From contig JAPYTK010000031.1 in NCBI GenBank assembly GCA_029941785.1, positions 1 to 35,955 on the forward strand: a stretch of DNA of 35,955 nucleotides, in the 5' to 3' direction. This stretch comes from Polyangiaceae bacterium. Lineage in GTDB: Bacteria; Myxococcota_A; Polyangia; Polyangiales; Polyangiaceae. The first letter of the stretch is position 1; every line of letters starts with the position of its first letter. Made by a program: the position numbers and the translations under genes. Below, piece by piece: positions 19,715-20,260 of the stretch. Under the pieces are notes generated by a model. The model did no database searches and was not told the origin of the DNA. It saw only the letters and a list, made by a program, of their open reading frames with translations.

Positions 19715-20260
19715 ATGGTCGAAGACGTGGCTCATTCGCTCGACAACACCTTCTCGCTACCGAATGAAGCGGGGCACTCGGTGCGTATTTCGGACGCGCT
19801 CGGAGAGCGCACCGGCACGGTGCTCCTGTCATTCCGCGGACATTGGTGACCTTTCTGCGTCAGTTCCTGGAAGGGACTGAAGAAACGGGCATCCGCATTC
19901 GAAGCTCTCGGAGTGCAAGTCTTCGGCATCGCCACCGACACGCAAGAGCAGCTTTCCGACTTCCGGATCGCGCTCGATTTGCCTTTCACGATGCTGTCCG
20001 ACCCCCTGCTGAGCAGCGCTCAGGTGTTCGATATCCCGGTCAGCAGCAAGGCGTCGTACGCGACCTCCTTGGCTCTGCACCCCGTGCTTCGGCATCTGCC
20101 TAAGAAGGCGTTCTTGCAACCGGTCTTTTTGCTCTGGAGGGGAAAGGAACAGCTTTACGCCTGGCGTCAAACCGAGAAACTGCGCAATCTCTTCGGCGCC
20201 AATGGTCGGCCTTCTCCTCAGGGCATCTTCGACATCACCGAACGTTTGATCACCGGCTAA
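19715..20260 (+). CDS. Peroxiredoxin-like selenoprotein (in-frame TGA read as selenocysteine, W-U-P-F-C)
   Basis: This is a 181-residue AhpC/TSA-type redoxin with one in-frame TGA at 19847-19849. Before it the frame reads TFSLPNEAGHSVRISDAL and VLLSFRGHW. After it the same frame continues PFCVSSWKGLKK, FEALGVQVFGIATDTQEQL, LPFTMLSDPLLSSAQVF and GANGRPSPQGIFDITERL to the stop. Relatives in this family read RGxWCP[FY]C, so the TGA replaces exactly the first, nucleophilic Cys. Reading it as selenocysteine gives U45-P-F-C48. A SECIS-like hairpin follows at 19852-19885 and the base after TGA is C, a context weak for termination. The expected role is thiol- or peroxide-reduction in the cytoplasm. 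The ATG at 19715 fits the family start; a GTG at 19649 would add 22 residues. Nonsense mutation is the alternative. The sel genes must lie elsewhere. Confidence 0.83.
19852..19885 (+). promoter_or_regulatory. Putative bacterial SECIS element of the peroxiredoxin-like gene
   Basis: This mRNA hairpin directly follows the TGA codon. A lower 5-pair stem is formed by tttct (19852-19856) and agaaa (19881-19885), with a three-base bulge gcg on the 5' side. An upper 8-pair stem is formed by tcagttcc (19860-19867) and gggactga (19873-19880), with one U-G wobble. The five-base apical loop is tggaa (19868-19872). There are 18 bases between the TGA and the loop, and a G is at the second loop position. 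Both agree with the known bacterial SECIS pattern (loop about 16-37 bases after UGA, G among the first two loop bases). The layout of lower stem, bulge, upper stem and small loop resembles the element in fdhF. Confidence 0.78.

Follow-up and report, generated by a model that had tools for sequence, protein, structure and literature searches.

Does the in-frame TGA at positions 19847-19849 (forward strand) of the window, by which we mean the whole stretch of 35,955 nucleotides analysed here, encode selenocysteine (Sec), and is the hairpin that follows it a functional bacterial SECIS element? The evidence set out below makes it very probable that the hairpin acts as a bacterial SECIS within a selenoprotein coding region; on this reading we predict that SelB binds it, that Sec is inserted and that the product is active as an enzyme. 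The gene (19715-20260, forward strand) encodes a Prx-like (AhpC/TSA) thioredoxin-fold protein of 181 amino acids with Sec at residue 45; the ATG at 19715 is its putative start, in a reading frame that is also open farther upstream. It is flanked by a divergently oriented protein kinase gene on one side and a CRS1/YhbY-domain gene on the other. The TGA lies in the motif GHW-U-PFC, and its Cys partner, Cys48, is encoded by the TGC codon at 19856-19858 (forward strand), which overlaps the 5' arm and the bulge of the hairpin. Together these residues form a UxxC centre, U45-P-F-C48, of which both columns, U45 and C48, are invariant among six relatives, and past the TGA the frame stays free of stops and conserved over about 135 codons.

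The product carries an AhpC/TSA domain (PF00578, E = 2.4e-18, 66.7 bits against a cut-off of 26), and Pfam also assigns it to Redoxin. An AlphaFold2 model (mean pLDDT 87.4) has a thioredoxin fold in which residues 46-56 form a helix directly after U45, and the solved structures closest to the model are those of Bcp/PrxQ and ResA. By sequence profile and model, the protein thus has the thioredoxin fold in common with PrxQ/Bcp peroxiredoxins and with ResA, but its redox centre is UxxC, like the CxxC of ResA and not the TxxC of peroxiredoxins. Matches to NCBIfam models all fell under their cut-offs, including those to thiol peroxidase PRK09437 and the PrxQ equivalog, as well as that to the SelL-related redox protein NF040769 (27.4 bits against a cut-off of 120 bits), so that membership of the last family is not indicated. 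Prx-like thiol:disulfide oxidoreductases with PF00578 and a UxxC or UxxU centre are a predicted prokaryotic selenoprotein family (PMC13188914, PMC9312934), and the Prx-like UXXC family was already present in the Sargasso Sea set (PMC1088965). The window gene adds a new member to this described Prx-like UxxC family, with which it shares the PF00578 match and UxxC in place of the peroxiredoxin TxxC/TxxU site, although its subfamily is distinct, with the conserved stretches LHPE-R-x-P-K-x-FLQP and NL-GARGRP in the closest members. Literature searches on selenoproteins in myxobacteria returned no paper on this topic, a result that does not show that none exists.

The hairpin spans 19852-19885 on the forward strand, and the geometry proposed for it in a preliminary description (a five-pair lower stem, a three-base bulge, an eight-pair upper stem and a five-base loop, 18 nt after the TGA) was recovered with all 13 pairs present. 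The 5' arm of the lower stem (19852-19856, UUUCU) pairs with 19881-19885 (AGAAA) and is weakly conserved; three unpaired bases, GCG, bulge on the 5' side at 19857-59; and the upper stem and loop occupy 19860-19880, where 19860-67 (UCAGUUCC) pairs with 19873-80 (GGGACUGA) through eight pairs, one of them U-G, beneath the apical loop UGGAA (19868-72) with GG at loop positions 2-3. In a 140-nt context, pair probabilities were 0.97-1.00 in the upper stem and 0.62-0.83 in the lower stem. Folding bore out the proposal, in that the hairpin is part of the minimum free energy (MFE) structure of 19825-19905, where U19868 and A19872 also pair and leave a GGA triloop. The published bSECIS model (PMC13188914 Fig. 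2A; earlier use in PMC1088965) specifies a loop of 3-9 nt, a stem of 4-16 bp, a G in loop positions 1-2, a spacing of 16-37 nt and an MFE at or below -7.5 kcal/mol. The window hairpin agrees with every rule of this model: it lies directly 3' of the Sec-UGA inside the coding region, with the frame open and conserved on both sides; it has a 5-nt loop of the N1-G-G-N-N2 type (3 nt if its U and A pair) on an upper stem of 8-9 bp; G occupies loop position 2; 18 nt separate the TGA from the apical loop; and the MFE of 19850-19889 is -16.1 kcal/mol. Nothing in it falls outside the model, its own features being the GCG bulge on the 5' side and the poor retention of the lower stem in orthologs. An Rfam scan of the whole window gave no match.

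Agreement with this model can arise by chance, and the preliminary description had treated the hairpin as independent support for Sec insertion. The 81-nt stretch at 19825-19905 is not more stable than dinucleotide shuffles of itself (z = -0.5). When a hairpin was scored as an uninterrupted stem of at least 4 bp under a loop of 3-9 nt, with G among the first two loop bases and a spacing of 16-26 nt, its stability was equalled after 12 of the 971 TGA triplets in the window and after 60 of the 5914 codons in its genes, or about 1%. Compared with synonymous-codon randomisations of the same peptide under local codon usage, the hairpin is stronger than expected (p = 0.0035, z = -4.0). It does support Sec insertion, but at a chance level of about 1% the hairpin alone is weak to moderate evidence, and weaker independent support than had been claimed. 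The hairpin is real and somewhat unusual, and it is convincing only through conservation.

That chance level is also what favours reading the TGA as a nonsense mutation in a pseudogene, or as a sequencing error, with the hairpin a chance by-product of GC-rich coding sequence. Three close orthologs, L067 (G133), L021 (G039) and L086 (G338), bear directly on this. Their proteins are 43-51% identical, they come from genomes of other genera (G338 lies outside the window's class by its kinship labels), and the tree places them with the window gene in a single clade (100/99). All three carry TGA at the same codon, and coding conservation, with an excess of third-position changes, extends over both sides of it. 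A mutation or an error is hard to reconcile with a TGA that recurs at this codon in independent genomes, some from other families and from another class, with a conserved open frame of about 135 codons beyond it, with full Sec machinery in the genome, and with a hairpin whose presence tracks TGA as opposed to Cys codons (both below). For practical purposes the orthologs have already refuted this reading, to which we give a very small probability.

Conservation of the hairpin is concentrated at its apex. In an ungapped four-sequence alignment the upper stem is 86% paired with three pairs invariant, all four sequences retain the core pairs between 19863-67 and 19873-77, and the loop is UGGAA throughout except for one UGGAG. 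In the lower stem 70% of cells are paired and the outermost pair is kept in only one of the four sequences; of the two-stem hairpin first described, it is therefore the apical upper stem that holds in orthologs, whereas the lower stem is poorly kept. The actual structure is 80% paired, above the 41-70% of slid-structure controls. Compensatory changes, which the preliminary description had suggested looking for, occur at two pairs of the upper stem: at columns 15/33 a C-G pair is G-C in L021, and at columns 18/30 U-A and C-G alternate between the window and L067, in both cases by synonymous codon changes on the two sides. Covariation over these four sequences is nevertheless not clearly above shuffles (37-124 of 500 were as high), and the case thus rests on the contrast between Sec- and Cys-encoding relatives. 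No Cys-encoding close ortholog was found in our searches, so this contrast was drawn from the wider family.

Across that family, the best hairpin had a median of -10.0 kcal/mol in 35 relatives with TGA versus 0.0 in 31 with a Cys codon. Within the phylum, hairpin strength differed between Sec and Cys members (P = 2e-9, Mann-Whitney U-test), and after dereplication at 75% identity a hairpin at or below -7.3 kcal/mol was found in 20 of 24 Sec members versus none of 16 Cys members (P = 1.5e-7), although these P values ignore the relatedness left after dereplication. Checked against the two outcomes named beforehand as counting against the element, Sec homologs that lack the pairing and Cys homologs that keep it equally well, the element held up: Sec-encoding homologs retain a hairpin and Cys-encoding ones do not. 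The nearest Sec/Cys pairs differ in the hairpin, for example L109 (aacttccAGGTCCggaagtt) and L072 (ctttcAGATTCgggag), whose proteins are 56% identical. A search of genome contigs with a Cys-form query yielded Cys relatives from gammaproteobacteria only, which serve as Cys controls, together with partial Bacteroidetes matches. L107 (G050) and L109 (G051) come from two genomes of the window's own genus in which the search found no close ortholog. Both are Sec versions (YRGGWUPYC) of another subfamily whose members mostly encode Cys, and both have a hairpin of their own, which makes for a compact natural Sec/Cys comparison.

An alternative interpretation is that the hairpin is a mere by-product of the amino acids conserved downstream of the UxxC motif, with no function as RNA. 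The residues SW(K/R)xL, common to the four close sequences, do fix part of the stem, and the hairpin of L086 is not better than its own synonymous null (p = 0.18). We consider this interpretation very improbable because synonymous randomisation rarely yields the window hairpin, as given above; because Sec members jointly exceed their synonymous nulls (combined p = 2e-14, dereplicated) and Cys members do not (p = 1.0); because subfamilies with other residues form hairpins at other apex positions; and because Cys relatives with similar residues have no hairpin.

The position of the apex itself varies by subfamily, with loop centres near 18.5, 20.5, 21.5, 22.5, 25.5 and 27 nt after the UGA, despite a protein alignment that shows no gap after the Sec codon. 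Apex registers cluster on the family tree more than shuffled labels do, with Cys members between them. The apex thus appears to occupy several registers in one family, each largely tracking a subfamily and separated by Cys lineages, a pattern that fits either repeated independent Cys-to-Sec gains, each accompanied by a newly formed SECIS, or an element that has slid along the sequence; we hold this account tentatively, at slightly less than even confidence. We make no claim as to the number of Sec gains, since the tree comprises 97 columns and contains many unresolved forks.

The capacity to decode UGA as Sec is encoded in the source genome (6.03 Mb, 98.8% complete), where tRNA-Sec (74.3 bits, anticodon TCA), SelB beside it (322.9 bits summed), SelA (481 bits) and SelD (280 bits; L017, L105, a gene cut by the contig end at G000:C100:18184-18930) all score above curated cut-offs. 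More broadly, tRNA-Sec was detected in 32 of 36 TGA-bearing genomes versus 1 of 18 Cys-only genomes (P = 2e-9, Fisher's test), where Cys-only denotes a genome with no TGA member among the matches listed; the four TGA-bearing genomes without tRNA-Sec are 76-84% complete. One relative genome, G191, holds two tRNA-Sec genes above the Rfam cut-off (G191:C30:14654-14742 and G191:C421:3903-3996), reflecting either duplication or contamination. A second, distantly related AhpC/TSA-like gene in the source genome (L104, G000:C41:30265-30555) likewise has a TGA where the alignment places the active-site codon (FVUPYC). The hairpin downstream of it has a contiguous-stem score of about -7.3 kcal/mol, so the genome holds at least two Sec candidates of the AhpC/TSA superfamily.

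Other bacteria are known to have Sec-like tRNAs that carry a different amino acid, which lends some weight to the idea that this UGA is decoded as another amino acid, such as Cys or Trp. We regard this as highly unlikely here because the tRNA-Sec candidates examined include just one tRNA with a TCA anticodon, tRNA-Sec itself, because the genome encodes SelA and SelD, and because relatives have Cys at the site. With Sec as the preferred decoding, the mechanism is most likely the standard bacterial one, a reading that draws on the published model (PMC13188914) and on the comparative evidence. The complex of SelB, GTP and Sec-tRNA-Sec would bind the upper stem and the G-containing loop just 3' of UGA 19847-49 and would deliver Sec to the A-site UGA; with SelB on the stem-loop, the ribosome is proposed to add selenocysteine as residue 45 rather than end translation there. 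The resulting protein would be a Prx-like enzyme with predicted thiol:disulfide oxidoreductase activity, its redox centre U45-P-F-C48 lying where the first helix of the thioredoxin fold begins.

The hairpin is real but of a well-known kind, since the gene belongs to a known family of selenium-containing thioredoxin-like proteins. For the organism, what standard annotation would break in two at the TGA is instead one intact gene for a selenoprotein, and the Sec machinery of the genome is complete. For the Prx-like family, a clean Sec/Cys comparative set within the phylum is now available, and its moving apex register could help to trace how SECIS elements originate or change place as Cys and Sec replace each other.
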